Below, in pieces: positions 19,601-47,025 of a DNA stretch of 64,000 bases. Location: contig NZ_JAUSQZ010000001.1 in the NCBI RefSeq assembly GCF_030811555.1, positions 1,054,001-1,118,000 on the forward strand. Direction: 5' to 3'. Both the position numbers and the translations under genes were made by a program. The notes beneath the pieces are model-generated. The model was given only the letters and a program-made list of their open reading frames with translations, made no database searches and was not told the origin of the DNA. The stretch comes from Kineosporia succinea (GTDB lineage: Bacteria; Actinomycetota; Actinomycetes; Actinomycetales; Kineosporiaceae). How positions within the stretch are numbered: position 1 is the stretch's first letter; each line of letters starts with the position of its first letter.

Positions 19601-19697
19601 CCTCGGCAATCGACGGCAATGCCCGAAGTCCATTTCCGGCGGCCGGACGCCGCTGCGAAGCCCATGACTTCGCACCCCCGCACAGGCGGTGACGCCC

Positions 19698-24377: not shown

Positions 24378-24704
24378 CTAGCTCGTCGAGCCCGGCTGGT
24401 CGTCCCCGAGGTCAGCTTCAGGCGAACCTGCCCCCAGATCCGTCGGGTCCGAGGCTTCGCCGGCGGAGCCCGGCGGAAGGGCAGGCTCTTCGGCGGAGTC
24501 CGATGGGAGTGCGGCGGACTCCTCGGCTACCGCCGACTCGTCCACGACGGTAGCCGAAGGCGAGGACAGGGTCTTCCGAGCGAGCTGGGCCTTCTCCCAT
24601 TCCTCCATGAAGAGGCAGTACTGACGAAGAAGCTCGCGTAGCTGAGACAAGATCAAGAAGATCAAGCCGAAGCCCGAAACGATGAAGCCGATCAGTTCTT
24701 CCAC
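24378..24704 (-). CDS. Small membrane protein with acidic tail
   Basis: 108 residues. One hydrophobic helix at residues 4-22 (GFIVSGFGLIFLIL) is followed by an amphipathic stretch and then a long disordered Ser/Glu/Pro/Asp tail. GTG start with GAGGGG about 9 bases upstream. It is the first of three minus-strand genes that break the rightward early region. A TACC-N4-GGTA palindrome stands 67 bases upstream of the start. Function unknown; it may be a lysogeny-expressed accessory gene. Confidence 0.7.
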   Translation of the reverse strand: MEELIGFIVSGFGLIFLILSQLRELLRQYCLFMEEWEKAQLARKTLSSPSATVVDESAVAEESAALPSDSAEEPALPPGSAGEASDPTDLGAGSPEADLGDDQPGSTS

Positions 24705-24770: not shown

Positions 24771-24782
24771 TACCAGTTGGTA
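24771..24782 (-). promoter_or_regulatory. TACC-N4-GGTA palindrome upstream of a minus-strand gene
   Basis: TACCAGTTGGTA on the plus strand. It has the same half-sites as the elements in front of the cargo genes at 32.5-34.5 and 41.6 kb. Here it is farther from the start codon (67 bases), so its role is less certain. Confidence 0.45.
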
Positions 24783-26551: not shown

Positions 26552-26559
26552 GACTCGTG

Positions 26560-29094: not shown

Positions 29095-29103
29095 AACATC
29101 TCT

Positions 29104-29779: not shown

Positions 29780-29783
29780 AGTT

Positions 29784-29860
29784 CTCCGCGAAGCGGAGCC
29801 GCCGGGCGCACTGAGCGCAGCGAAGGCGCACCGGCGGGACTACACCAACGGTGTCCCGCC
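29784..29860 (+). promoter_or_regulatory. Set of competing hairpins downstream of the small basic gene
   Basis: CTCCGC-GAA-GCGGAG (29784-29798) is followed by CCGCCGG (29799-29805) pairing with CCGGCGG (29831-29837). GGCGGGA (29833-29839) can instead pair with TCCCGCC (29854-29860), with CACC/GGTG inside. The last two stems share 29833-29837, so they exclude each other, as in attenuators. Confidence 0.45.
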
Positions 29861-29896
29861 CGCCCGAAGAGCGGAACCAGGGTGAAGCCGGTGGAC

Positions 29897-30157
29897 CTAC
29901 TCCCTCAGCAGCTTCTTCGCGACCGCCATGCTGGCATGGACTTGCGCAAGGGCCACGAGTTGAGCCTGCTGGTCGCTCAATCCCTTTCCCAGCGATTCGC
30001 TCAGACTCGGCTGATTCGAGCTCACCGGCATTCCCAGGTTCTCGCGATTGCGGTTCACTCCGACTTGCCGCTGCGCCTTGCGGGCCAGCACCTGGTCCAT
30101 GAACTCCTCGGCCAGGCCAAGGCAGTCGTCGGCCGACATGTCGCTGTAGCTGGTCAT
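29897..30157 (-). CDS. Hypothetical protein, 86 aa
   Basis: 86 residues, helical and Gln/Ala-rich (LGLAEEFMDQVLARKAQRQ, AQLVALAQVHASMAVAKKLL). No recognised family or membrane segment. ATG at 30157 with GGAG about 10 bases upstream; an in-frame extension beyond has poor composition. The opposite strand also has an open frame here, but with less protein-like composition. It ends against the small basic gene. Confidence 0.6.
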   Translation of the reverse strand: MTSYSDMSADDCLGLAEEFMDQVLARKAQRQVGVNRNRENLGMPVSSNQPSLSESLGKGLSDQQAQLVALAQVHASMAVAKKLLRE

Positions 30158-30251
30158 GATGTACTTCTCCGTCCCCCGGTCAAGTGCAAAACGTCGGCGC
30201 CGAACGGGTACAGGTTGAGCAAGTCCCTCGGAAGACACCATGAGGTGCAGC

Positions 30252-30560
30252 ATGAGCGGGCGCTGGGCCAACCGGGCACCCGCCCACCTGCGCGGCTACG
30301 ACACCAACCACCGTCGTTTACGCTCCGCTTGGGCGACTAAGGTCTCAGCTGGCGGTGTCGCCTGCTGGCGCTGCACCCAACCGATCGCCCCGAACGAACC
30401 CTGGGAACTGGGCCACGACGATGACCGCCCTGGCCAGTACAAGGGGCCGGAGCATAAGGACTGTAACCAGCGCGCAGGGTCCGAGAAGGGCACCAAGGCG
30501 ATGAGGGCTCGGGCAGCGCTCAGGTGGCAACCGAAGGAACACCACCCAGGCCTAATCTGA
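30252..30560 (+). CDS. Phage HNH endonuclease (packaging-associated type)
   Basis: 102 residues with an HNH fold: CWRCTQPI (zinc Cys pair), WELGHDDDRPGQYKGPEHKDCNQRAG with the catalytic His and Asn. Such small HNH proteins are usually encoded directly before terminase genes and help cut DNA at packaging. Here eight minus-strand genes separate it from the terminase. ATG at 30252 has GAGGTG 5 bases upstream; an ATG four codons earlier is possible. Its last 9 bases overlap the end of the opposing gene. Confidence 0.87.
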   Translation: MSGRWANRAPAHLRGYDTNHRRLRSAWATKVSAGGVACWRCTQPIAPNEPWELGHDDDRPGQYKGPEHKDCNQRAGSEKGTKAMRARAALRWQPKEHHPGLI

Positions 30561-31172
30561 GCCGGGCATCCACTGAGCAGCATCCGAGCCACCCTCGCGG
30601 CGCTCTACTTCCTCCAAGCGATCCAGCGTCGGCCCCCACTCATGGATCATCTCGCCACCGGCCGCTTCAATCTCAGTGCGCCTGGCCGCAGCGATCTCGG
30701 CCATCAGTCTTCGCCGCTGCCCTTCCAGCGTCTCGATGAACCGAGTGAGCCCCTCCAACTGCTTCGCAGGATCGGCCATCTCCCGTCTGGTTTCCTGGGC
30801 GGCCCTCAGGCAGGGCTCGCACATCGGAGCCTCCGGCGGCGCCTCGCCAACCACCAAGTCGTGGACGTCCAGCACCGGCTTCTCCAACGCCGTCAGCATG
30901 TCCTCCAGGTCAGCCCGCAGCTCGTCGACGGCGTCTCCCTGGGCAGCCGAAGGTTCAGAGAGCCGCCCCATGTACCGGCCATCCGCGCGGTAGTACAGCT
31001 CAAAGATCGAGAACAGGATCTGCGAAGACCCCTCGACCGAGGGATGGCGCAGCACCCGGTAGTCGAAGATCAACGGCTCATCCGACTCGATGACGCGCCG
31101 CGCCGCATCCCGGTCCACCACCACGTCTTCGCCCGGCCCAACAGCCGGCTTGTCGTCACTCACCTGGGCCAT
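30552..31172 (-). CDS. Cargo island protein 1, 206 aa, hypothetical
   Basis: 206 residues. Residues about 25-90 look like an alpha/beta unit (IFDYRVLRHPSVEG, ILFSIFELYYRADGRYMGRL). A Cys pair (CEPC) stands near residue 116, and the remainder is a coiled coil (LEGLTRFIETLEGQRRRLMAEIAAARR). No membrane segment. The ATG at 31172 lies 17 bases inside the upstream gene and follows GGACCGGAG directly, so it is probably coupled to that gene. Family not recognised. Confidence 0.72.
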   Translation of the reverse strand: MAQVSDDKPAVGPGEDVVVDRDAARRVIESDEPLIFDYRVLRHPSVEGSSQILFSIFELYYRADGRYMGRLSEPSAAQGDAVDELRADLEDMLTALEKPVLDVHDLVVGEAPPEAPMCEPCLRAAQETRREMADPAKQLEGLTRFIETLEGQRRRLMAEIAAARRTEIEAAGGEMIHEWGPTLDRLEEVERREGGSDAAQWMPGSD

Positions 31173-31743
31173 CTCCGGTCCGTCGGTGGATCTCAGCGTC
31201 CCTGGCTCCCAGCACCCGGCGTTCCTCCTCCGTGTACCGGCGCCGCTTCGGCCGCTCACCCCGCACCGTCGGCTCCGACATCGCCTTCGCCAGCAACGCC
31301 TGCCGCTCCGGGTTGCCGTCATACTCGGCCTGCGCCTCAGCGTCCGAATCCCACACGGACAACGCCGACTCACCCAACCTGGTCGGCTGGGCCACCGCCT
31401 TCACCACTAGGCCCACCCGAGATGCCTCCATTAGGCATCCGTCGCAAACGTTCACACGCAACGTCACCCCCATCGACGTCAAGGGGCCCGGAAAGACAGC
31501 GCTACCCCGCTGGCCAAAAGCCGAGAACACCAGCCCACCCTGCGGATCCAACGACGATCCATTATCGCCCGCCGCCAACGGCTTACGGCATGCAAGACAT
31601 GTGCGGGCTCTCTGCTCAGCGTCCGTCCCGTCCCTGAGCGGGCCAGATGCTTCCCCGATCTCAATCTGGCCTGTCGTGCGCCGCGCTTCCTCTGGCACGA
31701 AGAATTCCTTGTCTGGCCTTCGAATCTCCCGCCCATCAGTCAT
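31156..31743 (-). CDS. Cargo island protein 2, 195 aa, hypothetical
   Basis: 195 residues, soluble. Two Cys pairs (CLACRKPLAAGDNGS and NVCDGCLMEASR) suggest a zinc-stabilised knob. The N-terminus contains KEFFVPEEARR, which is echoed in cargo protein 4 (AEFFVPAEVER). The C-terminus is charged. ATG at 31743 has no ribosome site; TACCGT lies 8-13 bases upstream, so the mRNA is probably leaderless. Function unknown. Confidence 0.72.
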   Translation of the reverse strand: MTDGREIRRPDKEFFVPEEARRTTGQIEIGEASGPLRDGTDAEQRARTCLACRKPLAAGDNGSSLDPQGGLVFSAFGQRGSAVFPGPLTSMGVTLRVNVCDGCLMEASRVGLVVKAVAQPTRLGESALSVWDSDAEAQAEYDGNPERQALLAKAMSEPTVRGERPKRRRYTEEERRVLGARDAEIHRRTGDGPGE

Positions 31744-31750
31744 TCGGGCC

Positions 31751-31756
31751 ACGGTA
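31751..31756 (-). promoter_or_regulatory. -10 box of a leaderless gene
   Basis: TACCGT on the minus strand at -8 to -13 from ATG 31743, preceded by CGTCGCCGC and, further up, AAGCCGT. The same arrangement precedes the genes starting at 32843 and 35031. Confidence 0.5.
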
Positions 31757-31805
31757 GCGGCGACGGACGAGACGGCTTGAAGGAGTTCACCGAGCGTTCC
31801 TCGAC

Positions 31806-32465
31806 TCACCCGACGACGGCCGGCTTCTCCTCCGCCATCGGAATGAAGCGCTCCCGCCCCTCCACGAGCTTGCCGTCCCAACGACGAGTCCAGTCCTTGC
31901 CCTTGATGTCGGTGAAGGTGAAGCAGACACCGAACGGCTGGTTGTTCTGCTCAGCCTCTTCGAGGGCCTTCATGTCGGTGTCATCGACGCCGATCCACAA
32001 CGACACCCCCTCACCGGGAACGGCCGGGGCAAGCATCGCGCGCTTCATCTGCAGCGGATGATCCGGCCGATGCCACAACCGGCGGTTCGCCTGGAACTGC
32101 AGGCTGAAGTTGTACACCGGCTGTGTGCTCTGGTTCAGGACCCGCACCTGACGCTGCTGCTTATCGACGCTCGGCCATGAACCACGGTGGACCCACGCCG
32201 ACACCAGCTCAGCCTGTGCACGGTCCTCCGCCCTCTCTCGGCGGTCCTCACGCTGCCGCTCCAGGGCCAGCTGTGCCTCTGCACTGGCCGCCTGCTTCTT
32301 CGCCTCCGCAAGTTGTCCCCTCGTGCTTTCCCAGGTGCGCTTCACGTACAGCAGGGCACCGAAGGCGATGACCGCCCCGACACCGGTTGCGCTGGCCTCG
32401 ATCCACGACGGCAGCAGGTCTGTTTCCAGCGGGCCGCACCATCCGGCCGACAAGGTGTTGTGCAT
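31806..32465 (-). CDS. Cargo island protein 3, membrane-anchored coiled-coil protein
   Basis: 219 residues. One membrane helix (about 22-42, ATGVGAVIAFGALLYV), a long Glu/Lys/Arg/Gln coiled coil (ESTRGQLAEAKKQAASAEAQLALERQRE) and a C-terminal beta-rich domain of about 120 residues (VRVLNQSTQPVYNFSL, ending KPAVVG). The beta domain recalls that of cargo protein 6, which is anchored in the same way. No ribosome site; a CATCAT box at -7 to -12 and a TACC-N4-GGTA palindrome at -18 to -29 precede ATG 32465. Confidence 0.75.
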   Translation of the reverse strand: MHNTLSAGWCGPLETDLLPSWIEASATGVGAVIAFGALLYVKRTWESTRGQLAEAKKQAASAEAQLALERQREDRRERAEDRAQAELVSAWVHRGSWPSVDKQQRQVRVLNQSTQPVYNFSLQFQANRRLWHRPDHPLQMKRAMLAPAVPGEGVSLWIGVDDTDMKALEEAEQNNQPFGVCFTFTDIKGKDWTRRWDGKLVEGRERFIPMAEEKPAVVG

Positions 32466-32482
32466 CAGCGCATGATGACGGC

Positions 32483-32494
32483 TACCTATTGGTA
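32483..32494 (-). promoter_or_regulatory. TACC-N4-GGTA operator-like palindrome
   Basis: TACCTATTGGTA on the plus strand, 18-29 bases upstream of ATG 32465. The distance is identical at the genes starting at 33946 and 34470. Confidence 0.6.
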
Positions 32495-32546
32495 GGGTGC
32501 CCGAACCGGCACCGCACGCCAGCTAGCCGCGCCCGAAGCCGGAGAC

Positions 32547-32843
32547 CTAGTCACCAGCTGGCTTGTCCGGTTCCGCATCGATGCGTTCAGCAAGCTCGTA
32601 TAGGTATTCGTAATCCAGAGGGCCCTGGCCGGCGTTCAAGCGGGCCGCTTCTGACTCGTGCCACTTACGCAGCCAGTACGTTTCCTTGTACGAGAGGCTA
32701 TGGACCGCGCTCAGGACTCTGACCGCGCGACCGATCTCTTCCTGTGCCGACAGCCCACTGTGGTCTGCGTACTGACGAACAAGGCGTTCCACCTCTGCTG
32801 GCACGAAGAACTCTGCGCCGCCCGGCTTACTCGACTCAGTCAT
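32547..32843 (-). CDS. Cargo island protein 4, 98 aa, hypothetical
   Basis: 98 residues, soluble and mostly helical (VERLVRQYADHSGLSAQEEIGRAVRVLSAVHSLSYKETYWLRKW). The N-terminus AEFFVPAEVER resembles KEFFVPEEARR of cargo protein 2. ATG at 32843 is chosen because TACCGT lies 9-14 bases upstream with no ribosome site; ten more in-frame codons upstream would include the promoter. Function unknown. Confidence 0.72.
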   Translation of the reverse strand: MTESSKPGGAEFFVPAEVERLVRQYADHSGLSAQEEIGRAVRVLSAVHSLSYKETYWLRKWHESEAARLNAGQGPLDYEYLYELAERIDAEPDKPAGD

Positions 32844-32851
32844 GAGCGGAC

Positions 32852-32857
32852 ACGGTA
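32852..32857 (-). promoter_or_regulatory. -10 box of a leaderless gene
   Basis: TACCGT on the minus strand, preceded by CTCGTCGC and, further up, AGGCCGT. Start codon ATG 32843 follows after 8 bases. Confidence 0.5.
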
Positions 32858-32887
32858 GCGACGAGCCCACCACGGCCTGAGGCCAGT

Positions 32888-33394
32888 TCAGTGAGCGTTC
32901 ACCGCCCCGATCTCCTCCTTCACGCCCAACCGGTAGGCATCAATCAGACGACCCAAGCCAGCCGTCACACCACCCCGGCGTGAACCGTCCTCACTGTCGT
33001 CAAACTGGAACACCAAGTGGATCGTGCCGGCCAACTCCACAGCCTCACGAGCCAGCTCCGATACCTTCTCCGACGACAGCAACTGCACCGCCGGTAAAGC
33101 TGCTCGAACATGGTCCGGTGAAGAGTCGCCGCTGGGTTCACGCCAGTCCTCGCCGGGCGCGAACGGATCGTTCTCGGTTACCGCCCACCGGTGGATACGC
33201 AGCAGCCCTTCCATCAGCTCCTGATGAGCAGCGAGGCGCTTCTCCAGCAACCCCGCACGTCGCGCCTCGGCCAGATCGCGCCGGTGGCGACGGCTTTCCC
33301 AGCCGATGGATAGCGCTCCGCCGATGAGGGCGCTCACGGCAGCACCGCCAGCACCGATCGCGGCGCCCACCAGACCAGCAGTCGTTGCATCCAT
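32888..33394 (-). CDS. Cargo island protein 5, membrane-anchored, paralogue of protein 8
   Basis: 168 residues. An N-terminal Gly/Ala-rich membrane helix (GLVGAAIGAGGAAVSALIGGAL) leads into a basic coiled coil (RRDLAEARRAGLLEKRLAAHQEL) and a helical C-terminal part ending LIDAYRLGVKEEIGAVNAH. Cargo protein 8 shares the start MDA, the RDLAE-RRA-L-E-RLAAH-EL core and the A-YRL--K-EIGA end, so the two arose by duplication. No ribosome site; TACGGT at -7 to -12 and a palindrome at -29 to -40. Function unknown. Confidence 0.75.
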   Translation of the reverse strand: MDATTAGLVGAAIGAGGAAVSALIGGALSIGWESRRHRRDLAEARRAGLLEKRLAAHQELMEGLLRIHRWAVTENDPFAPGEDWREPSGDSSPDHVRAALPAVQLLSSEKVSELAREAVELAGTIHLVFQFDDSEDGSRRGGVTAGLGRLIDAYRLGVKEEIGAVNAH

Positions 33395-33400
33395 GAGCGA

Positions 33401-33434
33401 ACCGTAGGCCGACGACCGCGCCTACCGGTCGGTA
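33401..33434 (-). promoter_or_regulatory. Leaderless promoter with TACC-N4-GGTA palindrome at the -35 position
   Basis: Minus strand: palindrome TACCGACCGGTA (33423-33434), 16 bases, then TACGGT (33401-33406) and 6 bases to ATG 33394. Confidence 0.6.
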
Positions 33435-33946
33435 CGGTTGGCTTTGAGCCGCCCCCGAGCACGCCTAAGCGCACGACCGAACTGGCTGCCTTCCAGCCTG
33501 ACTACCAGCCGCCAACGCCGGGGTCCACGCAGCCGCCGCCAGTACTGGCCACCTCGAACCGTGTCGAACGACAAGTCATATGTCTGCTCCTCCCCATGGC
33601 ACGGGATCCACTGCGTAAACGCAGTCCCTCCAGCCAAGAGGGTGGGGGGAGCAAGCTTTGAACCGTCATTTTGGAACAGACCCGTCTCCGAGAACAGGAA
33701 CATGTCATCCTGATCGTCGGGCCAGAACTGCGACACCACGCTGACATTCAGAACCGGCTCAGATGACAAGTTGTCCAAGCGGGTTCGTATCTGCGCACCT
33801 TCCCGCGAATCCTTGAACTCCGGGGATGCGACAACCTTGCTCGCGACGATCCGGTCAACGAACCGTACGCCCACAGCCCACGCCACCAGCAGGGCGATCA
33901 GGTCCGCCACCAGGTTCCCGGTCATGCCGGACAGCCAGCCAATCAC
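33422..33946 (-). CDS. Cargo island protein 6, membrane-anchored, 174 aa
   Basis: 174 residues. One membrane helix (about 8-30, GNLVADLIALLVAWAVGV) is followed by a cytoplasmic beta-rich domain (IRTRLDNLSSEPVLNVSVVSQFWP, then GGTAFTQWIPCHGEE) and a basic C-terminus. The domain recalls that of cargo protein 3. GTG at 33946; GATGCT at -7 to -12 and a GACC-N4-GGTA element at -18 to -29. A GGGGA 12 bases upstream could act as a weak ribosome site instead. Confidence 0.72.
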   Translation of the reverse strand: MIGWLSGMTGNLVADLIALLVAWAVGVRFVDRIVASKVVASPEFKDSREGAQIRTRLDNLSSEPVLNVSVVSQFWPDDQDDMFLFSETGLFQNDGSKLAPPTLLAGGTAFTQWIPCHGEEQTYDLSFDTVRGGQYWRRLRGPRRWRLVVRLEGSQFGRALRRARGRLKANRTDR

Positions 33947-33963
33947 TCGGGCAGCATCCCCGT

Positions 33964-33975
33964 GACCGAGCGGTA
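33964..33975 (-). promoter_or_regulatory. Palindrome variant GACC-N4-GGTA
   Basis: GACCGAGCGGTA on the plus strand, one mismatch from TACC-N4-GGTA, 18-29 bases upstream of GTG 33946. On the minus strand TACCGCTCGGTCAC is followed by GATGCT, as at the next gene. Confidence 0.55.
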
Positions 33976-33987
33976 ATAGAGATCAAC

Positions 33988-34470
33988 TCACCGTCGTAGC
34001 GAACGTGGTCTCGGGCCAGGTGTCCGCAAACGGACAGGACGATGTCGAGCAAGACCCGAACGACGTCGCGCAGCCGACTCGGCAATGGCACGGATCTCCG
34101 CCAGCCGCCGGCGTTCGAGTCGAGCCACCTCCCAAACCACCACGACGACGAAACCACCGCAGGTCAGCCCGACCATGACCGGATCGCCCCGGCCCATGTA
34201 ACCGGCACCAAGCAGGACCAGCGTCGAGATACTCGCGAAGGTGCGGCTCTTAAAGCTGCCCCAACGATCATGCGGCTCACGTTCCGCGATCGCCCAGATG
34301 GCGAGCCCGAACGCCATGAAGCCCCCGACGACGCTCACCACCACATCGATCCGGCCAACCTTCGGCACCACGCCCGCCCATCGGGCAACCACGTAGAGGG
34401 CGGCAGCCACGATCACATTCGCGACAGAGTTGATCGCCAGGTCGTAGCGCCAGTTCTCCCACCAAGGCAT
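33988..34470 (-). CDS. Cargo island protein 7, multi-spanning membrane protein, 160 aa
   Basis: 160 residues with about four hydrophobic segments (residues 12-32, 40-62, 78-93 and 98-113) and a basic C-terminal tail rich in Arg. No family recognised. ATG at 34470 without a ribosome site; GATGCT at -7 to -12 and a GACC-N4-GGTA palindrome at -18 to -29, nearly the same sequence as upstream of cargo protein 6. It has its own promoter rather than sharing that of its neighbours. Confidence 0.72.
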   Translation of the reverse strand: MPWWENWRYDLAINSVANVIVAAALYVVARWAGVVPKVGRIDVVVSVVGGFMAFGLAIWAIAEREPHDRWGSFKSRTFASISTLVLLGAGYMGRGDPVMVGLTCGGFVVVVVWEVARLERRRLAEIRAIAESAARRRSGLARHRPVRLRTPGPRPRSLRR

Positions 34471-34487
34471 CCGGCCAGCATCTAGGT

Positions 34488-34499
34488 GACCAGTCGGTA
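34488..34499 (-). promoter_or_regulatory. Palindrome variant GACC-N4-GGTA
   Basis: GACCAGTCGGTA on the plus strand, 18-29 bases upstream of ATG 34470, the same distance as at 33964 and 32483. Confidence 0.55.
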
Positions 34500-34515
34500 G
34501 CTGAGTCCAGCCATG

Positions 34516-35031
34516 TCAGCCAGCCAGCGGATCTTCCGCTGCACCGATCTCTACCTTGATCGCAAGGCGGTACGCCTCCAACGCCGTCCAGTACTCATTG
34601 GCCAAACGACCGTAAAGACCATCCCGGTCGTCACTGGTTAAGGTCTGGATCTTGTACTCGCGAGCCGCCACAGCAACGCGCAACGCAGCCTGGCGAGCCG
34701 GTTCCGAAGCGATCAGATCAACCACCCCAAGCCTCGGCAGAGGCTTCTCTGCGCCGTCATCCTCCGCGATAGCCGCATCCTCCATTGCGGAGAAGTTCGG
34801 ATCTTCTTCACGATGCTCGATGTCCTCATCCACATGGGACAGGTTGTTGTACAACTCCATATGGGCCGCTAGGCGCCGCTCCATTAGGCGCGCACGTCGC
34901 CCCTCGGCCAGGTCGCGCTCGTGTTTCTCCACGTCACGACGCAGCGACGCTCTCGTCGCCCACGCGCTCGTACCCGCACCGGCCCCCGCACCGATCAGAG
35001 CACCCACCAGGCCGATCACCGCAGCATCCAT
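34516..35031 (-). CDS. Cargo island protein 8, membrane-anchored, paralogue of protein 5
   Basis: 171 residues with the same plan as cargo protein 5: Gly/Ala-rich membrane helix at the N-terminus (GLVGALIGAGAGAG), basic coiled coil (KHERDLAEGRRARLMERRLAAH), and a helical C-terminus ending EAYRLAIKVEIGAAE. The middle is more acidic and diverged. ATG at 35031 with TATCGT at -7 to -12 and no ribosome site, so leaderless. It is the last island gene before the terminase, which reads the other way from a divergent start. Confidence 0.75.
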   Translation of the reverse strand: MDAAVIGLVGALIGAGAGAGTSAWATRASLRRDVEKHERDLAEGRRARLMERRLAAHMELYNNLSHVDEDIEHREEDPNFSAMEDAAIAEDDGAEKPLPRLGVVDLIASEPARQAALRVAVAAREYKIQTLTSDDRDGLYGRLANEYWTALEAYRLAIKVEIGAAEDPLAG

Positions 35032-35037
35032 GGTCGG

Positions 35038-35043
35038 ACGATA
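35038..35043 (-). promoter_or_regulatory. -10 box of a leaderless gene
   Basis: TATCGT on the minus strand, preceded by GGCCGTTTCGTCGC, matching the promoters at 31751 and 32852 in both core and upstream block. Confidence 0.5.
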
Positions 35044-35238
35044 GCGACGAAACGGCCGGAACATCTATAGGAAACCGTCTAGCCCGATGGCCACCACCCC
35101 CCTCCCGGCCAGCCTCCAATTCCGGGCAGTACTGGCGCTGAGGTTCCGCACGGGTTCCAGGGGCTTTAGGTCGTAGCTGAAACCCGTTCCACAGGGAAGC
35201 TTTTCAGTACATCCCGACACGTGAAAGAGGTTGCAGCC

Positions 35239-35700
35239 GTGGGCATTTCAGGCCCGGCTCCTAAGCCAGCGTCGCGTCGAGCGCGCAACAACCGCGACCC
35301 GCATCCGTATCGGACTTTCCCGCAGCCGGACTTCGCTGGCCCTCGGGATCTTCCGGATGACCTGATCGACTTCAGGGAAGAGTGGCACCCTGCGGTTCTG
35401 CGTTGGTGGAGCCGCTGGTGCGAGTCCCCGTTGTCGTCGGAGTTCTCCGAGGTCGAGTGGTCGGAGCTTGAGGTCGCGGCGGCGCTGCTCCAGAAGTTCT
35501 GGACGGGTAGCCGCTCCGTCGAGTGCGCAGGCGAGCTACGGCAGCGGATGTCGCAGTTGGGTGCGACTCCGGAGGCCCGGCAGAAGCTGCGCATCGCGTA
35601 CGCCACGGCGGACGAGAAGGAGCAGTTCATGCCGCCGGCGAAGTCTTCGCGGGAGCGGTACGGGTCGCTGACGGCGCTGCCCCAGAGCAAGAGCGGTTGA
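35239..35700 (+). CDS. Terminase small subunit
   Basis: 153 residues. The basic N-terminus with GPAPKPASRRARNN, followed by the helical core (FREEWHPAVLRWWSRWCESPLSSEF, then ELEVAAALLQKFW and ELRQRMSQLGATPEARQKLRI), matches actinophage small terminase subunits. It recognises the packaging site and delivers DNA to the large subunit. GTG at 35239 is preferred for AAAGAGG 7 bases upstream; GTG at 35221 is an alternative. The large subunit gene follows after 47 bases. Confidence 0.85.
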   Translation: MGISGPAPKPASRRARNNRDPHPYRTFPQPDFAGPRDLPDDLIDFREEWHPAVLRWWSRWCESPLSSEFSEVEWSELEVAAALLQKFWTGSRSVECAGELRQRMSQLGATPEARQKLRIAYATADEKEQFMPPAKSSRERYGSLTALPQSKSG

Positions 35701-35747
35701 TTCATCTCCACCCGCACGGGTGACCTTGTCCCGCACGGGAGGCCGTC

Positions 35748-37358
35748 ATGCCTTGGCGGCCGTCTGTTCCTGGCGAGGTCCCGACGCTGGGGTGGAGCGT
35801 CCTGGACTGGATGTCGACGTTCCTCGCGACGCCGGACCGGACTGACTTCGTTCCGTTCCAGCCGACCGACGAGCAGGCCCGATTCCTGCTCGGCCTGTTC
35901 GAGCTGGACCCGGTCACTGGTCGACGCCGGTACCGCCGGGCGGTGATCAGCAGGCCGAAGGGGTGGGGCAAGAGCCCGCTTCTCTCGGCGTGGATCATCG
36001 CCGAAAGTCTCGCCCCGGTCGTTCCCGACGGTTGGGATGCGCACGGCCAGCCGGTTGCTCGACCGTGGGCTGAGTTGCGGACTCCGTGGGCGCAGGTCTG
36101 CGCGACATCCGCTGAGCAGACGGCCAACGCCTGGGTGCCGCTGCTGGAGATGATCCGCGGCGGCTCCGTAGTCGACGAGTACGACCTCGACCCGATGGAC
36201 ACGTTCATCGCGATGCCGAAGGGCCGGATCGAACCGGTGACGGCGGCGGCGACGTCCCGCGAAGGTAACCGCCCGATCGCCTGCCTGCTGGATCAGACCG
36301 AGTCGTGGCTTCCGGCGAACGGCGGAGTACGCCTGGCCGCGACGCTGCGACGGAACCTGGGCAAGACCGGCGGCGTGTCCGTCGAGGCGCCGAACGCCTA
36401 CTTCCCTGGCTTGGAGTCGGTGGCGGAGGACAGCGCCCGCTACTGGTCGGCGATCCAGGAGGGTCGTACCCAGGGCGATGACGGGTTGCTTTACGACCAC
36501 CGCGAAGCGCCTGGTGATACGGAACTCGACGACGACGAGTCGCTGCTGAACGGCTTGCGCATCGCGTACGGCGACTCGGCCAGCGACGCCGGCGGATGGG
36601 TGGATCTGCGCCGCATCATGGCTGAGGTCCGTGACCCCGGCACTGACCCGCAGGACGCTCGGGCGTTCTATTTGGGTCAGATCACCCATGCCAAGGGCAG
36701 CTGGGTCACCTCACCTCAGTGGAATGCGGTCGCCGACGCCACGAAGTATCTGTCCTACGGCGACACGGTCACCTTGGGCTTCGACGGTTCCGTCAGGGAC
36801 GACTCCACCGCCCTCGTGGCCTGCCGGGTCGATGATGGGCACCTGGAACTGCTGGCCTGTTGGGAGAAGCCGCTCGTCCGGGATGACGAGTGGTCCGTGC
36901 CCGGTCTCGAGGTGGACGCAGCCGTGGCTGCGGCGATGCAGCGGTTCCGCGTGATCGGCTTCTACGCCGACCCGCCGTACTGGGAAACGTATGTGGATCG
37001 CTGGAATAGCCTGTACGGCAGGAAGATGCGCGTGGGCCACCGATCGCATCCGCTGGAGTGGAAGACCAACCAACCGTCGCAGATGGAAGAGGCGCTGAAG
37101 CGGTTCCTCACGGCCGTCCTGGGCGGTCAGCTGAGCCACGATGGCGGTTCTCAGCTGACCCGACACATCTTGAACGCCCGTCGACGGCTGTCCGCGACAG
37201 GGAAGCTGGCGATCGGCAAAGACCCGCAGTTCCCGTCGAAGAAGATCGACGCGGCGATGGCTGCTGTCCTGGCGTTCGAATGCCGGGCCGACGCCCTTGC
37301 GACCGGCAAGGGGCGGATTCGCAAGAGCAACGGTTTCCGAGCCCAGCGCGCGATCTGA
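35748..37358 (+). CDS. Terminase large subunit
   Basis: 536 residues. The ATPase domain has Walker A SRPKGWGKSPL (about residue 68) and Walker B LLDQTESW. The RNase H-like nuclease domain has LGFDGSVRDDSTALVA, a middle acidic region and the final KKIDAAMAAVLAF. It pumps DNA into the capsid and cuts it. Length is usual. ATG behind GGGAGG. Upstream is the small subunit; downstream, instead of the portal, come two small minus-strand genes, and the portal starts after 880 bases. Confidence 0.95.
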   Translation: MPWRPSVPGEVPTLGWSVLDWMSTFLATPDRTDFVPFQPTDEQARFLLGLFELDPVTGRRRYRRAVISRPKGWGKSPLLSAWIIAESLAPVVPDGWDAHGQPVARPWAELRTPWAQVCATSAEQTANAWVPLLEMIRGGSVVDEYDLDPMDTFIAMPKGRIEPVTAAATSREGNRPIACLLDQTESWLPANGGVRLAATLRRNLGKTGGVSVEAPNAYFPGLESVAEDSARYWSAIQEGRTQGDDGLLYDHREAPGDTELDDDESLLNGLRIAYGDSASDAGGWVDLRRIMAEVRDPGTDPQDARAFYLGQITHAKGSWVTSPQWNAVADATKYLSYGDTVTLGFDGSVRDDSTALVACRVDDGHLELLACWEKPLVRDDEWSVPGLEVDAAVAAAMQRFRVIGFYADPPYWETYVDRWNSLYGRKMRVGHRSHPLEWKTNQPSQMEEALKRFLTAVLGGQLSHDGGSQLTRHILNARRRLSATGKLAIGKDPQFPSKKIDAAMAAVLAFECRADALATGKGRIRKSNGFRAQRAI

Positions 37359-37359
37359 G

Positions 37360-37515
37360 TCAGCTCACCCGACGCCAGAACTTAACAATTGCAGCTACTT
37401 TTAGGATGTACTGGGCACGGTCGGGATGCTTGCGCAACAAGGCGAAGCAGAACACCAGCCAAGAAATCCAGGCAGCAAGTGTGCATACAGCCAGGCTCGT
37501 GGTGACCGCGCTCAT
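37360..37515 (-). CDS. 51-aa single-helix membrane protein, copy 1
   Basis: 51 residues: a central hydrophobic helix (AVCTLAAWISWLVFCFALL) and a basic C-terminus (RKHPDRAQYILKVAAIVKFWRR). ATG at 37515 with GGGAG 8 bases upstream. It is a clear paralogue of the gene at 37856-38011: same length and the shared pattern AxWISWLxFCxAxxRxxPDRA----VAAIV-xWR. It is convergent with the terminase gene, ending next to its stop. Function unknown. Confidence 0.8.
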   Translation of the reverse strand: MSAVTTSLAVCTLAAWISWLVFCFALLRKHPDRAQYILKVAAIVKFWRRVS

Positions 37516-37855
37516 GTTTCTTCTCCCGTGAACTGACTCGACGCCTACAAGGCGAAGGCGCATGGAAGACAAAAGCAGGCCTTCTGCAAGGGTAACCGAG
37601 CCGCAGTGACCACATCGACTAAGCCGACGAAGTTGACTACGGAAAAACCCGATGGATACCCGAGAGAGCCAAGCCGGTTTCCGTTGAGGTCGCGCCAATC
37701 CCGAGATTCACCAAGTCGCGCGCCGCCCCCTAATCCGCACTTGACCTTGATCCGCTGAGCAACACCGAGGAGGGCGGCAGTCCGAGGACGCAGCCGCTTC
37801 GGTCTCGGCCCCCACCAAGGCTCCGCTACGACCCACATACCCAGTGTTCTCCCGA
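37516..37855. other. Spacer of the first duplication unit
   Basis: About 340 bases without a convincing gene. It includes the upstream region of the first 51-aa gene and, at 37733-37744, the 12-base motif ATCCGCACTTGA, which recurs at 38218-38229 in the second unit. Confidence 0.55.
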
Positions 37856-38011
37856 TCATCCAGGGCTACGCCAGAGGCGGACGATGGCCGCCACCCTCGG
37901 AATGCACTTGGCACGGTCCGGGTCATGGCGGACGACGGCGTAGCAGAACGCCAGCCAAGAAATCCATCCAGCGAGGACACAAAGGGCCACGGTCGCCGCA
38001 ACGCCGCTCAT
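37856..38011 (-). CDS. 51-aa single-helix membrane protein, copy 2
   Basis: 51 residues with helix VALCVLAGWISWLAFCYAVV and a basic tail (RHDPDRAKCIPRVAAIVRLWR). ATG at 38011 with AGGAGA 6-7 bases upstream. It differs from copy 1 at roughly half its positions but keeps length and pattern. Function unknown; a lysogeny-expressed membrane peptide or a holin-like peptide are both possible, neither proven. Confidence 0.8.
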   Translation of the reverse strand: MSGVAATVALCVLAGWISWLAFCYAVVRHDPDRAKCIPRVAAIVRLWRSPG

Positions 38012-38241
38012 GTTCATTCTCCTGCTCGTCGCAGAGGCCAGTACCTGGCCAAACGAAAGCAGAGGCTCAGTGAGCAGAAAGAGCACAGTGAGCAGAGCGA
38101 GCAGCGGCATTTGCGCTGCGCTGCAGCGTCTTTAAACCAAACCGCAGATGACCTGCCATGACGTCGTCCCGTGTCCCATATGTCGCTTACCGAGAAAATA
38201 AACGAGCGCAAACCTAGATCCGCACTTGAGAGGGAGGCGTC

Positions 38242-39756
38242 GTGATCACCGCTTCCTCCGAGCCCGGCAGTCCGGAATGGTGGCTAACGAAGCTCGAAGC
38301 TCAGCTCGTTCGACGCCGTGACGGTGACAACTGGACGCGCACCTCCAGCGAGATCCAGAAGCGCCCGCCGCTCAAGGTGCTCGACGCTTACCACCGGGGC
38401 GAGCCGCCTCTCCCCCGCGCCAGCCAGAACTGGGCGCCGGCGATGCGGGAGTACCTGCGCACCGGGCGCATGAACCTGGCGGAGTTGTGCGTCAGCGCGG
38501 TCGTCCACAAGATGCGGCCGGTCGGCTTCCGTACCGCCGCCGAGTCGGACGTGGACGGCGACGAGCGAGCAGCCGAGATCTTCCGGCATAACAACCTCGC
38601 GCTGCGGACCAGGGACTTCTTCACCTGGGGTCTGGCGTTCGGTGATAGCTACATCATGGTCAGCCCGAACCCCGACGACTCGGGTCGGCCGTTCATCACC
38701 CAGGAACACCCCTTCGAGTGCATCACCTCGGACGACCCGATCACCGGGGCGCCCAGAGCTGCGCTGAAGCTCTACCACGATGACGACCTCGAAGAGGATC
38801 GCGCCTACGTCTTCTTGCCTGGCCAGGTGCACGTCGCCACCCGAGGTACCGGCTTCAACCAGCCGACCTCGTGGGACTGGAACGACGGACTCTCGTTCGC
38901 CTTGCCGAACGGCTTGGAGGATGTCATCCCGGTCCGTCACTTCCGCAACGAGAACGGCACCGGCGACTTCGAGCCGCACCTCGACACGTTGAACCGCATC
39001 AACGAGACGCTGTTCGACCGGCTGAGTGTTCAGAAGTACCAGGCGTTCTCGATGCGGGTGTTCTCCGGCCTGCCGATGCAGGACGGCGACGGCAAGGACA
39101 TCGACTACAGCGAGATCTGGTCCCAGGACCCTGGGTCGGTCGTCACGCTCGGCCAGATCACGGACGACCAGGACAAGCCGGTCTCGAACGCGATCCAGAT
39201 GTTCGAGACCACGCCCGTGCCGATGGACCCGTTCCGCATGGCCGTCCTCGACGACATGAAGACCTTCGCCGTCGAGACCAGCACACCGCTGCACCTCATC
39301 ACCCCAGACGCCGCCCAAGGCTCGGCTGAGGGCGCCTCGCTTCAGCGAGAGGCGGGCACTTGGAAGACCGAGGACCGTCGTGCGCGAGGCCAGCAAGCCC
39401 TCGCCGAAACCATGTCCCTGGCCTTCCGATTCGCCGGACTGGACGACCGCACCGACCCGACGAAAATCGAGGTCATCTGGGCTCCCCCGGAGCGGTACAG
39501 CCTCGCTGAGTCGGCCGCCGCCGCTCAGCAGCTCCGTTCAGCCGGGATTCCGCTTGAGACGATCGCGGAGACCACCCTCCAGATGTCCCCGGAGGAGATC
39601 TCCAGGATGAACCAGCAGTTGGCCGACGAGGCTCTTCGCGCGCCCGTGACCGCCGGCGAGGCCAACCAGGTCCGCCGGGTCGCCCCGAACCTCACCAGCA
39701 ACCCGAACGGCCAGGAGCAGGTCGATGACGGTAACGATGCCAGAGCAGCAGCCTGA
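38242..39756 (+). CDS. Phage portal protein
   Basis: 504 residues of the SPP1 gp6-like portal family: FFTWGLAFGDSYIMV (with the wing region), EHPFECITSDDPITG, TLNRINETLFDRLSVQKYQAF and AVETSTPLHLI. It forms the dodecameric ring at the capsid vertex through which DNA passes. GTG at 38242 behind GAGGGAGG. It overlaps the minor capsid gene by 32 bases. Confidence 0.93.
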   Translation: MITASSEPGSPEWWLTKLEAQLVRRRDGDNWTRTSSEIQKRPPLKVLDAYHRGEPPLPRASQNWAPAMREYLRTGRMNLAELCVSAVVHKMRPVGFRTAAESDVDGDERAAEIFRHNNLALRTRDFFTWGLAFGDSYIMVSPNPDDSGRPFITQEHPFECITSDDPITGAPRAALKLYHDDDLEEDRAYVFLPGQVHVATRGTGFNQPTSWDWNDGLSFALPNGLEDVIPVRHFRNENGTGDFEPHLDTLNRINETLFDRLSVQKYQAFSMRVFSGLPMQDGDGKDIDYSEIWSQDPGSVVTLGQITDDQDKPVSNAIQMFETTPVPMDPFRMAVLDDMKTFAVETSTPLHLITPDAAQGSAEGASLQREAGTWKTEDRRARGQQALAETMSLAFRFAGLDDRTDPTKIEVIWAPPERYSLAESAAAAQQLRSAGIPLETIAETTLQMSPEEISRMNQQLADEALRAPVTAGEANQVRRVAPNLTSNPNGQEQVDDGNDARAAA

Positions 39757-40705
39757 GCAGACCTCGGACCTGGCTCGGTTCACGGCAATGGTCGCGGCCT
39801 ACGCGGCGGCCCAGGAAGCGCTCCGGGTCAACCTGATGGCGTTGATCCTGCGCTACTGGCGACTGGTCACGAACCCGTTCGCTCCCGACCAGGTCACCCA
39901 GTACGGCGAGGGCGTGGCGGTGGCGGTCCGGGCGGCCCAGAAGCGGTCGATGGATCTGTCCGTCGCCCACCAACGGGCGCTGCTCGGCGACATGGACGTG
40001 AAGCTCCCTCGCTTCGCCATGGACCTCCCCGAGCAGCCGCGCGGCGTGGACCCGGTGGAAGTAGCTCAGCGGGCGCTGCGGGAAGCACGCATCCTGGAGT
40101 CGGCCGGCGACCGAACAGCTCTCAATCCAGTACCGCTCTCTCGTGCCGAGGCGATGGACCGAGGCCTTCAGCGCGCGCTGCGCATGGCCAACGACGACGT
40201 CGACCTGGCAGCCCGTGAGGGTGCCCAGCAGGCTTTCGCCCGTGTTCCCGACGTGGTCATCGGGTATCGCCGCGTCATCCACCCGGAGCTTTCCAGGGGC
40301 GGTACCTGCGGCTTGTGCGCAGCGGCGGCCGATCGCACGTACACGGTGGGCGAACTGCTGCCGATCCACTCGGGCTGCAACTGCTCGGTCTCGCCGATCA
40401 CCCCAGACCAGGATCCGGGCGATGAGCAGAACCAGGTTGACCTTGGGGTGCTCTACCGGCTGGCAAACGGCACCGGCGGTAAGGAGCTGTCCCGCGTGCG
40501 GTTCCAGATCGACCGGCATGGTGAGCTCGGTCCAACGCTGCGGCCGCGCTCGAAGGGCGCTGGTGATCCGGCTGTTCAGATCGCGCAGATCGACGAGACG
40601 TTGGCTGGCCTTGGGACCTGGGCACAGAAGAACCCGGACGTGGATCTGGGGGCCGCCCAGAATGCTCAGCTGGATGAGCGAAACTTGCTGACTAACCGAA
40701 AGTGA
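39725..40705 (+). CDS. MuF-like minor capsid protein
   Basis: 326 residues. Helical N-terminal part; the C-terminal region has the VG15/MuF-type motif GGTCGLCAAAADRTYTVGELLPIHSGCNCSVSP with Cys/His residues for a metal. It is usually encoded after the portal and contributes to head assembly or is injected with DNA. ATG at 39725 overlaps the portal gene; a further ATG lies four codons later. Confidence 0.88.
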   Translation: MTVTMPEQQPEQTSDLARFTAMVAAYAAAQEALRVNLMALILRYWRLVTNPFAPDQVTQYGEGVAVAVRAAQKRSMDLSVAHQRALLGDMDVKLPRFAMDLPEQPRGVDPVEVAQRALREARILESAGDRTALNPVPLSRAEAMDRGLQRALRMANDDVDLAAREGAQQAFARVPDVVIGYRRVIHPELSRGGTCGLCAAAADRTYTVGELLPIHSGCNCSVSPITPDQDPGDEQNQVDLGVLYRLANGTGGKELSRVRFQIDRHGELGPTLRPRSKGAGDPAVQIAQIDETLAGLGTWAQKNPDVDLGAAQNAQLDERNLLTNRK

Positions 40706-40773
40706 CGGACGTGATACCGTGAGTCTCAGGGTTGGGGTAGAGCAACATCAGCTACCCACAAGGGAGAAAGAAA

Positions 40774-41010
40774 GTGCACAGCTCCTCCGAGGCCTTGGTC
40801 CTCGCTAACCTCCGTCATCACCTCGCCGATCGTGTCCAAGCCATGAACGCACCGACGGCGCAGATGGTCGCAGTCCGCTCAGGGCTTCCGGAGGCTGAAG
40901 TCGAAGAGATCTTTGCTGATCTCGATCGAGCCGGATGCATCCATGGCTCCGGCGAACTCGATCACATAGTCGGCCCCGTCTTCGCCATGCGCGTCACCTG
41001 CCGCCACTGA
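40774..41010 (+). CDS. Small winged-helix-like protein, 78 aa
   Basis: 78 residues. The pattern VLANLRHHLADRV, QMVAVRSGLPEAEVEEIFADLDRAGCI resembles a minimal winged helix. GTG start with a strong AGGGAGAAA ribosome site. It stands between head genes and is followed by a strong terminator. It could be a small regulator, but that is inference. Confidence 0.7.
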   Translation: MHSSSEALVLANLRHHLADRVQAMNAPTAQMVAVRSGLPEAEVEEIFADLDRAGCIHGSGELDHIVGPVFAMRVTCRH

Positions 41011-41019
41011 TGTGGCCTG

Positions 41020-41055
41020 CCGAGACCAGCCGGGCTTACCTTCGGCTGGTCTCGG
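41020..41055. terminator. 13-bp perfect hairpin terminator
   Basis: CCGAGACCAGCCG (41020-41032) pairs with CGGCTGGTCTCGG (41043-41055). It separates the small winged-helix gene from the convergent cargo gene and is probably bidirectional. Confidence 0.88.
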
Positions 41056-41066
41056 TGGTTTGGCCC

Positions 41067-41609
41067 TTAAAGCGAGTCGGCCACTTCCCGTAGAGCTTTG
41101 ATGGCCTTCTCCAACCTGAGAAGCGCTTCGCCTCGCTGCGCTTCCTTCTTACGGCCGTAGGTATGGATAGCGGCCGTGGCCGCGTCCGTCACTTCGGAAA
41201 CGACGGGAGTCAGTGCCGGATCATGGAAGAGGGTCGCGGTGATGCTGGCGGCCATGATTCTCTCGACAAGGTCGTCAACCAATTTCAGCATCGCCTGTGG
41301 CTCGCTGCCAAACAACTCTCGGACTGGGTCGCCTCGCCAAGCTGCCTGATGCCCTTGCATTTTTGGTGGGATGAGTGATGCGACAGCGATGAGCGCAGCG
41401 CAGGCCGCCCTTTTGCGGTCCCTCTCCTCGGCCGCCCGTGTATCGAGGTATCGCTGGCGATCTTCTTGGGCGGCGACTTCCCTCTGCTCATCGTCGGCGA
41501 TCCGAGCCGTCCGCTCTCGCCTCATGCTCACCCAAAGCGTCACCAGAGTGGCGAGCGTGGCCACGCCCGCGCCCAGCGTTGACCAGGCTGCGAGCCAATC
41601 TGCCTGCAT
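41067..41609 (-). CDS. Membrane-anchored coiled-coil protein in the head operon
   Basis: 180 residues. One membrane helix near the N-terminus (AAWSTLGAGVATLATLVTLWV), then a long charged coiled coil (RRERTARIADDEQREVAAQEDRQRYLDTRAAEERDRKR, which I shorten here to its character) and a helical C-terminal domain. The plan is that of the cargo island proteins. ATG at 41609 lacks a ribosome site; TACCGT at -7 to -12 and a palindrome at -28 to -39. It interrupts the plus-strand head genes, so it has been inserted there. Confidence 0.75.
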   Translation of the reverse strand: MQADWLAAWSTLGAGVATLATLVTLWVSMRRERTARIADDEQREVAAQEDRQRYLDTRAAEERDRKRAACAALIAVASLIPPKMQGHQAAWRGDPVRELFGSEPQAMLKLVDDLVERIMAASITATLFHDPALTPVVSEVTDAATAAIHTYGRKKEAQRGEALLRLEKAIKALREVADSL

Positions 41610-41615
41610 CCCGCC

Positions 41616-41648
41616 ACGGTAGCGATCCACCTCCCATACCTGCCGGTA
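41616..41648 (-). promoter_or_regulatory. Leaderless promoter with TACC-N4-GGTA palindrome at the -35 position
   Basis: Minus strand: TACCGGCAGGTA (41637-41648), 15 bases, TACCGT (41616-41621), 6 bases, ATG 41609. The architecture matches that at 33401-33434, 8 kb away. Confidence 0.6.
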
Positions 41649-41718
41649 GCCGCTCGACCAGCCCGGTTCGCGCCGCACGGCGCCCCCTCCATCCCCCTCC
41701 GACACGGAGATCACACGC

Positions 41719-42324
41719 ATGCCCGAAAACGATGCCCAGACCGACACCACCTCCGACACGGAAACCGGTGCCGTCGACCTGAGCGCCATCCAGGCCCTGC
41801 TCTCCGAGAACAACTGGAAGCCTGAACAGTTGGCCTCCCGACTCAAGGACTCTCGAAAGTGGGAGACCAGAGCCAAGGAACGGGCCGACTACGACCAACT
41901 CAAGGCCGAACTGGACAAGGTCCGCCAGGAAGGCATGTCCCAGGCCGAGAAGGACCTGGAGGCAGCCCGTTCCGAAGGCCGCGCCACCGGCGAGGCTGAA
42001 GCGCGTGCCCTGTACGGAGCCCAGCTCGTCCAGGCGAAGTTCGAGGGCCTGCTCCAGGGCCGAGGCATCGAGCCCGACCGCGCAGCCGTCTTGGCCGGCG
42101 ACTTGAACACGGCGAAGTACCTGGGTGATGACGGCAAGGTCAACGCCGAGGCGCTCGTCGCCTTCGTGGATGCCGTCGCACCCCAGCAGTCCACCGACGC
42201 CCGCACGGGCCAGCAGTGGGCGCCTACCAGTTTCGGTGCTGGGCAGCGCACTTCGACGACCGCTGCTCCGGGCGCGGCAGGTCTCGCCGAGATCGAACGC
42301 CGCTTCGGCAAGAAGCCCGCCTAA
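41719..42324 (+). CDS. Capsid scaffolding protein
   Basis: 201 residues. Acidic Thr/Asp N-terminus, central coiled coil (RLKDSRKWETRAKERADYDQLKAELDKVRQEG), and a basic C-terminus (IERRFGKKPA), the usual plan of phage scaffolds, which guide capsid assembly through the C-terminal end. Position before decoration and capsid genes agrees. ATG with GGAG about 10 bases upstream. Confidence 0.82.
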   Translation: MPENDAQTDTTSDTETGAVDLSAIQALLSENNWKPEQLASRLKDSRKWETRAKERADYDQLKAELDKVRQEGMSQAEKDLEAARSEGRATGEAEARALYGAQLVQAKFEGLLQGRGIEPDRAAVLAGDLNTAKYLGDDGKVNAEALVAFVDAVAPQQSTDARTGQQWAPTSFGAGQRTSTTAAPGAAGLAEIERRFGKKPA

Positions 42325-42366
42325 CACCATCCGTGACCGTACCTCGGTCGCACAGAGGGAGTTTCC

Positions 42367-42783
42367 ATGGCGACCGACATCACGGTCACTACCATCACCT
42401 ACAAGGACGCTGACCGTTCCTGGCTGCTTTTCGAGGCCAACGGCACCGTCGGCCCGGTCGCACGCGCGGCAGGCGTCATCAACTACGCGCTGTTCACCGC
42501 GAACACCCACTACCCGGACGGCTTCATCAAGTCCGGCACCCTGCTGGGGCGCGTCACGTCCGGCGGCAAGCTCGGCCCGTACGACGACGCGGCCAGCGAC
42601 GGGCGGCAGACCTGTGTCGGCCTGCTCTTCAACAACGAGCAGGTCCCCGCGAGCACCGCGCAGGTCGCGACCGTGCCCTACATCGACTCCTTCGCCGTGG
42701 TCTCCCAGGCGAAGCTCCCGGCGAACTCTGGCAACGACGCGAACGGTCGCGCTGACCTGCCGCTCGTGAAGTTCCGGGCCTAA
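42367..42783 (+). CDS. Head decoration protein
   Basis: 138 residues, beta-rich, with the family pattern FIKSGTLLGRVTSGGKLGPYDDAASDGRQTCVGLLFNNE. Such proteins trimerise on the mature capsid surface and stabilise it, like lambda gpD. ATG behind GAGGGAG. It lies between the scaffold and major capsid genes as in many siphoviruses. Confidence 0.85.
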   Translation: MATDITVTTITYKDADRSWLLFEANGTVGPVARAAGVINYALFTANTHYPDGFIKSGTLLGRVTSGGKLGPYDDAASDGRQTCVGLLFNNEQVPASTAQVATVPYIDSFAVVSQAKLPANSGNDANGRADLPLVKFRA

Positions 42784-46975: not shown

Positions 46976-47025
46976 GAGCACAAGCTAGGGCTTCCCCACC
47001 GGTAACAAGGGTGGTTCGGTGGAGA

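Follow-up and report, generated by a model that had tools for sequence, protein, structure and literature searches.

Morons, the cargo genes of prophages, are usually regarded as independent of one another, each being driven by a promoter of its own. In the accessible text of two reports on cluster K mycobacteriophages, a short repeated motif (SAS/ESAS) is found close to the start codons of some of the genes and is proposed to regulate their expression, and about half of the SAS copies have inverted repeats (PMC3203893, PMC12699233). Cluster A phages have stoperators, described in the available part of the report as asymmetric repressor sites present in many copies across the prophage and mostly away from promoters (PMC6550527). 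Prophage defence genes expressed in the lysogen, such as Sbash 30/31, are described in the accessible portion of a further report (PMC6426596). Here we analysed a stretch of 64,000 nucleotides from Kineosporia succinea (contig NZ_JAUSQZ010000001.1), referred to below as the window, which covers positions 1,054,001-1,118,000 of the 8,065,021-base single-contig genome. It contains a prophage (the element) whose plus-strand phage genome is broken by minus-strand genes, here termed cargo genes. It was found that a 12-bp palindrome, TACC-N4-GGTA, stands at set distances before the start codons of six of them. We propose, with a probability of roughly 0.6, that it serves as operator for a dimeric DNA-binding protein, likely a repressor, and that this single protein controls at least six minus-strand cargo ('moron') genes through their leaderless promoters.

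The sites are as follows; minus-strand genes are named by the coordinate of their start, and negative numbers are distances upstream of the start codon.

32483..32494, minus strand: exact site TACCAATAGGTA, class 1, at -29 to -18 of ATG 32465; hexamer CATCAT at 32472-32477
33964..33975, minus strand: one-mismatch site TACCGCTCGGTC, class 1, at -29 to -18 of GTG 33946; hexamer GATGCT at 33953-33958
34488..34499, minus strand: one-mismatch site TACCGACTGGTC, class 1, at -29 to -18 of ATG 34470; hexamer GATGCT at 34477-34482
46993..47004, minus strand: one-mismatch site TACCGGTGGGGA, class 1, at -29 to -18 of ATG 46975; hexamer TAGCTT at 46982-46987
33423..33434, minus strand: exact site TACCGACCGGTA, class 2, at -40 to -29 of ATG 33394; hexamer TACGGT at 33401-33406
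41637..41648, minus strand: exact site TACCGGCAGGTA, class 2, at -39 to -28 of ATG 41609; hexamer TACCGT at 41616-41621
24771..24782, minus strand: exact site TACCAACTGGTA, 67-78 bases upstream of GTG 24704, in neither geometry; role uncertain

The initial annotation of this DNA had reported the four exact sites (24771, 32483, 33423 and 41637) and the one-mismatch sites at 33964 and 34488, all of which are present. The seventh site, at 46993-47004, had been overlooked and fits the class 1 geometry to the base. The half-sites lie 18-29 bases upstream of 32465, 33946 and 34470, as had been stated, and the gaps between site and hexamer were likewise measured to be 5 bases in the first class and 15 and 16 in the second. 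For the other two starts a distance of 28-40 bases had been given, which needs a small correction: the site lies 28-39 bases upstream of 41609 and 29-40 upstream of 33394. The site centres, at -23.5 in class 1 and at -33.5 and -34.5 in class 2, place the two classes about one helical turn apart, in agreement with the earlier description. Of the four exact sites, which had been described as standing just upstream of minus-strand genes, that at 24771 lies 67-78 bases before its start codon and shares neither geometry. The central four bases and the flanks vary from site to site.

It is the position of the sites, rather than their number, that convincingly carries the case for the palindrome. When palindromes were scored in the 60 bases upstream of each of 52 genes, TACC-N4-GGTA came out best, with three exact copies against 0.027 expected, and only 1 of 300 simulations reached its p-value. 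In the minus-strand upstream regions alone (n = 14, 46975 not among them), 0 of 300 simulations were as good. Every start codon opening at least 80 codons was scanned for a site with at most one mismatch at offsets of 15 to 60. A site at exactly -29 was observed for 4 of 712 minus-strand starts (46975, 34470, 33946 and 32465) and for 0 of 651 plus-strand starts, and no other offset had more than two starts. The offset of -39 was found for 41609, and that of -40 for 33394 and for one TTG (22361) without a hexamer. In comparison DNA, consisting of related prophages, SF1, SF3, VWB, host DNA and GC-rich viral contigs, a site at -29 was found in 3 of 16,489 starts, none with a hexamer (Fisher p = 9e-5 versus 4/712). 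A start codon at a gap of 17, 27 or 28 bases, with the hexamer in register, follows three of the four exact sites in the element; at the seven exact sites elsewhere in the genome, checked for the same gaps, this layout is absent (0/7). The shared layout is not a leftover of duplication, because self-comparisons of the minus-strand proteins gave 33394 and 35031 as the only homologous pair and 35031 has no site. The paralogous pair apart, a repeat search revealed nothing accounting for the sites. Several minus-strand genes are without a site, namely 25775, 26551, 31743, 32843, 35031 and the recombinase gene 47613; all of these except 25775 have a TANNNT hexamer 6-8 nucleotides before the start.

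All six placed sites are accompanied by an xAxxxT hexamer at -12 to -7 (CATCAT, GATGCT, GATGCT and TAGCTT in class 1, TACCGT and TACGGT in class 2). The same pattern was found at this position in 39 of 1363 candidate starts in the element, a background taken from mechanical start codons rather than from known genes. A hexamer at -12 to -7 sets the transcription start at the start codon, which is the layout of actinobacterial leaderless genes. Because the hexamer occurs in all six, these genes look as though they have leaderless promoters, and the six site-bearing genes are therefore predicted to be transcribed without a leader. A scan with consensus promoters and terminators gave no more matches than in shuffled sequences.

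In the mechanism that we propose, transcription would begin at or beside the start codon, with RNA polymerase using the -12 to -7 hexamer. In the four class 1 genes, the bound protein would lie just upstream of the hexamer, in the spacer position; in the two class 2 genes, it would cover the -35 region, a helical turn farther upstream. The binder is thought to be a repressor because either position would block the polymerase; once it is released, through a signal or because the regulator is lost, the gene set would be switched on together. Control of a scattered gene set by one DNA-binding protein, as suggested in the initial annotation, is still the best reading and is strengthened by the fixed promoter geometry; the binders named there found no support.

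The protein could instead be an activator, with the class 1 sites (centre at about -23.5, between the hexamer and the -35 region) acting in a MerR-like manner and rescuing weak hexamers. The class 1 hexamers GATGCT, GATGCT and CATCAT are indeed poor, the consensus scan of 29000-42500 gave one promoter-like site that was not at these genes, and the helix-turn-helix (HTH) proteins of the HTH_17 family in the element belong to a MerR-like fold group. However, MerR-type activation requires one fixed register, and the two registers seen here argue against an activator needing one fixed contact. Moreover, the class 2 hexamers TACGGT and TACCGT match TANNNT unaided, and the class 1 gene 46975 has a full TANNNT as well. 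We therefore regard activation as unlikely, though worth keeping in view.

In the window, TACC-N4-GGTA occurs four times exactly, against 0.09 expected from dinucleotide shuffles or 0.22 from the product of half-site counts, in line with the earlier rough estimate of less than one exact site per 64 kb by chance. With one mismatch, 14 copies were found against 5.68 expected. The 8.07-Mb genome has 11 exact sites, 4 in the 60.4-kb element and 7 in about 8.0 Mb of host DNA, so that the equal frequency in the host which the initial annotation had raised as an objection was not observed. Twelve other genomes of the family have 8-23 exact sites each and 7-32 copies of a reversed control pattern, and there is therefore no consistent enrichment of the motif in the family genomes.

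Several observations weigh against the proposed reading. TACC-N4-GGTA ranks second (p = 1.6e-4) among the 4-base palindromes of the element with gaps of 0-12, and at least 10 of 60 simulated elements hold some palindrome with a smaller p. The site count alone therefore proves little and is not significant after the choice of palindrome is considered; in view of this simulation, the genome-wide count was dropped as proof. Four of the seven sites are imperfect, those at 33964, 34488 and 46993 having one mismatch and that at 24771 being misplaced. The hexamer background has a mechanical origin. In class 1, only one hexamer of the four begins with the T of TANNNT; the promoters of the other three genes may therefore be weak, and an activator could be needed there. 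The paralogue 35031 has no site although 33394 has one, and no recognised regulator gene of the element (XRE, GntR or HTH_17) has a site with at most one mismatch at its promoter. Finally, our searches gave no convincing homologue for the cargo proteins that they covered (32465, 33394/35031, 33946, 34470, 41609 and 46975), and no prophage sharing them was found.

Some of these points would fit chance, in which case a half-site frequent in promoters rich in TACC-like hexamers would have been chosen because it happened to be aligned. Besides the lack of significance of the count once palindrome choice is allowed for, several hexamers of the element are TACCGT or TACGGT, so that TACC is common near starts. 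But chance would have to account for an offset of exactly -29 in four genes, each with its hexamer in register and one (46975) outside the original claim, with nothing similar at any of the seven host sites, and we consider this quite improbable.

For the binder, the initial annotation had proposed the HTH_17 proteins at 21086, 21433 and 26808, none of which turned out to have a site with up to one mismatch at its promoter; a one-mismatch site at 21197 sits within the first HTH_17 gene (21086). It had also considered the phage repressor to be missing, which is probably not the case, for a homologue of the SF1/SF3 regulator was found to the right of the window. The right end of the prophage, with two further regulators, falls there (coordinates above 64000 carry the window numbering on into the adjoining DNA).

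69567-70790 (L063:5567-6790): XRE regulator, beyond the window; 31% identity to the SF1/SF3 regulator and 23-26% to VWB gp56
79368-79733 (L063:15368-15733): small GntR-type regulator, beyond the window and beside attR; promoter without the site

The XRE promoter has a palindrome of its own, CCCCAACAGATTGTTGGGG, which ends 4 nucleotides before TAAGCT, and TAAGCT lies 7 nucleotides before the ATG. The arrangement is near the class 1 geometry, and the sequence is unlike TACC-N4-GGTA. A repressor that controls the leaderless promoter of its own gene would be expected to bind at such a place, which suggests autorepression and offers a parallel to the repression proposed for the cargo promoters.

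The binder of TACC-N4-GGTA could possibly be a host protein. Within the element, the 98-residue product of 32547-32843 is a weak candidate, to be taken as a lead only. By eye, its residues 10-45 resemble a ribbon-helix-helix (RHH) domain. In a phmmer search of the PDB, the second of three matches was single-chain Arc (pArc) in the same register (E = 0.98), and a single-sequence model (mean pLDDT 61) showed helices at 16-25 and 33-47 in the expected order and no strand. No Pfam domain was found in this protein, and a fold search gave no significant match at E = 0.001. An RHH signature matched gene 32843 only and none of eight comparison sequences, but it was built on the 32843 protein and pArc and is therefore not independent. 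A more far-reaching picture would be a 'moron regulon' of the prophage, in which unrelated cargo genes, separately acquired and lying before and among the late genes, came under one small regulator through a 12-bp operator at two helical phases, the regulator perhaps being this RHH-like protein; we mention it as speculation and think it rather unlikely.

The cargo genes and their neighbours on the minus strand are listed below.

31806..32465, minus strand: cargo gene, 219 amino acids, borderline N-terminal hydrophobic segment
33422..33946, minus strand: cargo gene, 174 amino acids, N-terminal hydrophobic segment
33988..34470, minus strand: cargo gene, 160 amino acids, three hydrophobic segments
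32888..33394, minus strand: cargo gene, 168 amino acids, 37% identity to 34516-35031
34516..35031, minus strand: paralogue of 32888-33394, with leaderless-type hexamer TATCGT; palindrome absent
41067..41609, minus strand: cargo gene, 180 amino acids, amid plus-strand late genes, borderline N-terminal hydrophobic segment
46505..46975, minus strand: cargo gene, 156 amino acids, amid plus-strand late genes, newly added to the site-bearing set
24378..24704, minus strand: gene of 108 amino acids, N-terminal hydrophobic segment, downstream of site 24771
32547..32843, minus strand: gene of 98 amino acids inside the array, no site; ribbon-helix-helix-like N-terminus by eye
47026-47613, minus strand: serine recombinase of the DNA-invertase type, amid late genes (PHROG 125, E = 1.2e-51; Pfam Resolvase, E = 2.1e-35); leaderless-type hexamer TAGAAT

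A hydrophobic segment near the N-terminus (19-residue peak above 1.6) was found in four of the seven site-bearing genes; 32465 and 41609 are just under this limit (1.56 and 1.57), and 46975 peaks at residue 86. Apart from the recombinase, the tested cargo proteins gave no Pfam assignment above the cut-off and weak or no PHROG matches. The weak PHROG matches were to families of unknown function (E = 1.3e-4 and 5.1e-4) and to spanin (0.004) for 32465, to a holin family for 41609 (E = 0.0047), and to an unknown family for 31373 (E = 5.4e-4). None of eleven minus-strand cargo proteins, a set that does not include 31743, matched the PADLOC defence families.

The DNA-invertase-like gene 47026-47613 lies directly upstream of the cargo gene 46975, and it is conceivable that the palindromes serve this recombinase and let cargo genes invert or shuffle. 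The six placed sites, however, hold a set spacing to hexamer and start for which recombination sites have no need. Recombination also normally needs matching overlap bases, and the central four bases and flanks differ between sites. We consider this explanation most improbable.

Two further observations concern promoters of minus-strand genes without the site. Genes 31743 and 32843 have GCTACCGTG ahead of ATGACTGA in both promoters, and both proteins contain EFFVP close to the N-terminus, after which they diverge; the two genes thus combine a common start with different bodies. A perfect palindrome, GGTCACGA-G-TCGTGACC, at 26540-26560 overlaps the GTG start of 25871-26551 (minus strand), with TACGGT 8 nucleotides upstream, and is perhaps another operator.

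Homologue searches beyond the family libraries left out 24704, 25775, 26551, 31743 and 32843, and 34470 was searched in IMG/VR but not in whole genomes. No match for the 32465, 35031 and 41609 proteins was found in a phage collection, and IMG/VR had no relative of 41609, 33394/35031 (alignment A1), 33946, 34470 or 46975. A search of genome contigs gave none for alignment A1 or for 32465. In whole genomes, where matches were taken at E up to 0.001, only the own genome was matched by 33394 (1 of 98), by alignment A1 (1 of 296) and by 33946 (1 of 246, with none in the 245 others). Besides the own genome, 32465 matched one other (2 of 197; E = 1.1e-4), 41609 two others (3 of 246; E = 7.3e-4 and 9.1e-4) and 46975 one other (2 of 296; E = 7e-4).

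The palindrome was also sought in 46 related or comparison loci, of which 39 are viral and have a related terminase, four are stretches taken from other prophages, and three are the phages SF3, VWB and SF1. Six of the 46, all among the 39 terminase-related viral loci, carry one exact site each. The layout of site, hexamer and start was found at none of these six sites: one has a start at gap 17 without a hexamer, and five have none at 17, 27 or 28. No exact site was found in the terminase-related loci L014, L057, L058, L059 and L060, and nothing comparable to the minus-strand array appears in their gene lists. In IMG/VR, the class 2 compound promoter pattern was found in 53 stretches, 4 of them above 55% GC, and the class 1 pattern in at least 120, with 4 of the 120 listed above 55% GC; both counts were made with no control pattern and give no comparison with chance. 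GC content and site number were read for all 120 class 1 matches listed and downstream frames for 80 of them; among the 120, no locus had more than three sites, and no array like that of this prophage was seen. Tandem TACC-N4-GGTA sites were observed in the phage contigs L066, L085, L110 and L116, and in L110 an additional copy stands just before a small HTH-like gene, as judged by eye. The low-GC phage contigs L147, L153, L183 and L200 have a common TACCAAAAGGTA-AAACATATCTTCGTTAT-ATG ahead of a conserved 66-residue protein (MKGKSVKDYEQW...).

The element is about 60.4 kb long, because it is bounded by a 24-bp direct repeat of the tRNA end (GGGTTCGAGTCCCCCCTCGCGCAC), the att repeat in tRNA-Leu, with copies at 19532 and 79911. 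Its left end and terminase are given below.

19473-19555: tRNA-Leu gene
19689-20867: tyrosine integrase
35748-37358: terminase, 50-51% identity to the terminases of Rhodococcus ReT1v and Streptomyces SF1/SF3 phages

Another prophage in the same genome is marked by a distant terminase (35%) at 5926708-5928303, and no exact site was found in the surrounding 20 kb (L059). Outside the element, 16181-18148 (minus strand) is by eye a P450-like host gene, with a long N-terminus made of a tandem PGSAASV repeat.

If our reading is correct, this prophage would control its cargo as a set, through a common operator on unrelated morons. The operator would then offer a handle for finding cargo genes without homology and for asking which signal turns them on. 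The geometry, with a site from -29 or about -40, a hexamer at -12 to -7 and the start codon at +1, could be used as a rule when high-GC prophages are searched for leaderless cargo promoters. A literature search for the strings TACCNNNNGGTA, TACC-N4-GGTA and TACCN4GGTA and for motif words gave no match, which says little, as motifs are rarely so written.

The element resembles the phages SF1/SF3 and VWB in encoding an XRE regulator homologue beyond the late genes, and here the XRE gene has its own promoter palindrome CCCCAACAGATTGTTGGGG, unlike the TACC-N4-GGTA of the cargo genes. Like Sbash 30/31, the genes studied here are cargo genes that partly encode membrane proteins, transcription in the lysogen being a feature of Sbash; unlike in this prophage, no shared operator is mentioned for Sbash 30/31 in the accessible portion of that report (PMC6426596). 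As with the operators and stoperators of cluster A, in the available part of their description, copies of one site are scattered through the prophage; unlike those stoperators, the sites here are symmetric, and six of seven stand at a fixed promoter position. The 13-bp SAS consensus GGGATAGGAGCCC was not enriched in our sequence (2 matches with two mismatches, 2.02 expected). Nevertheless, as far as the accessible text on it goes, SAS/ESAS of cluster K is the nearest precedent, being likewise a short motif that accompanies the start codons of some phage genes. SAS is 13 bp long, asymmetric and confined to the non-structural half of the genome, whereas the present motif is a 12-bp palindrome at cargo promoters, two of which lie amid the structural genes.

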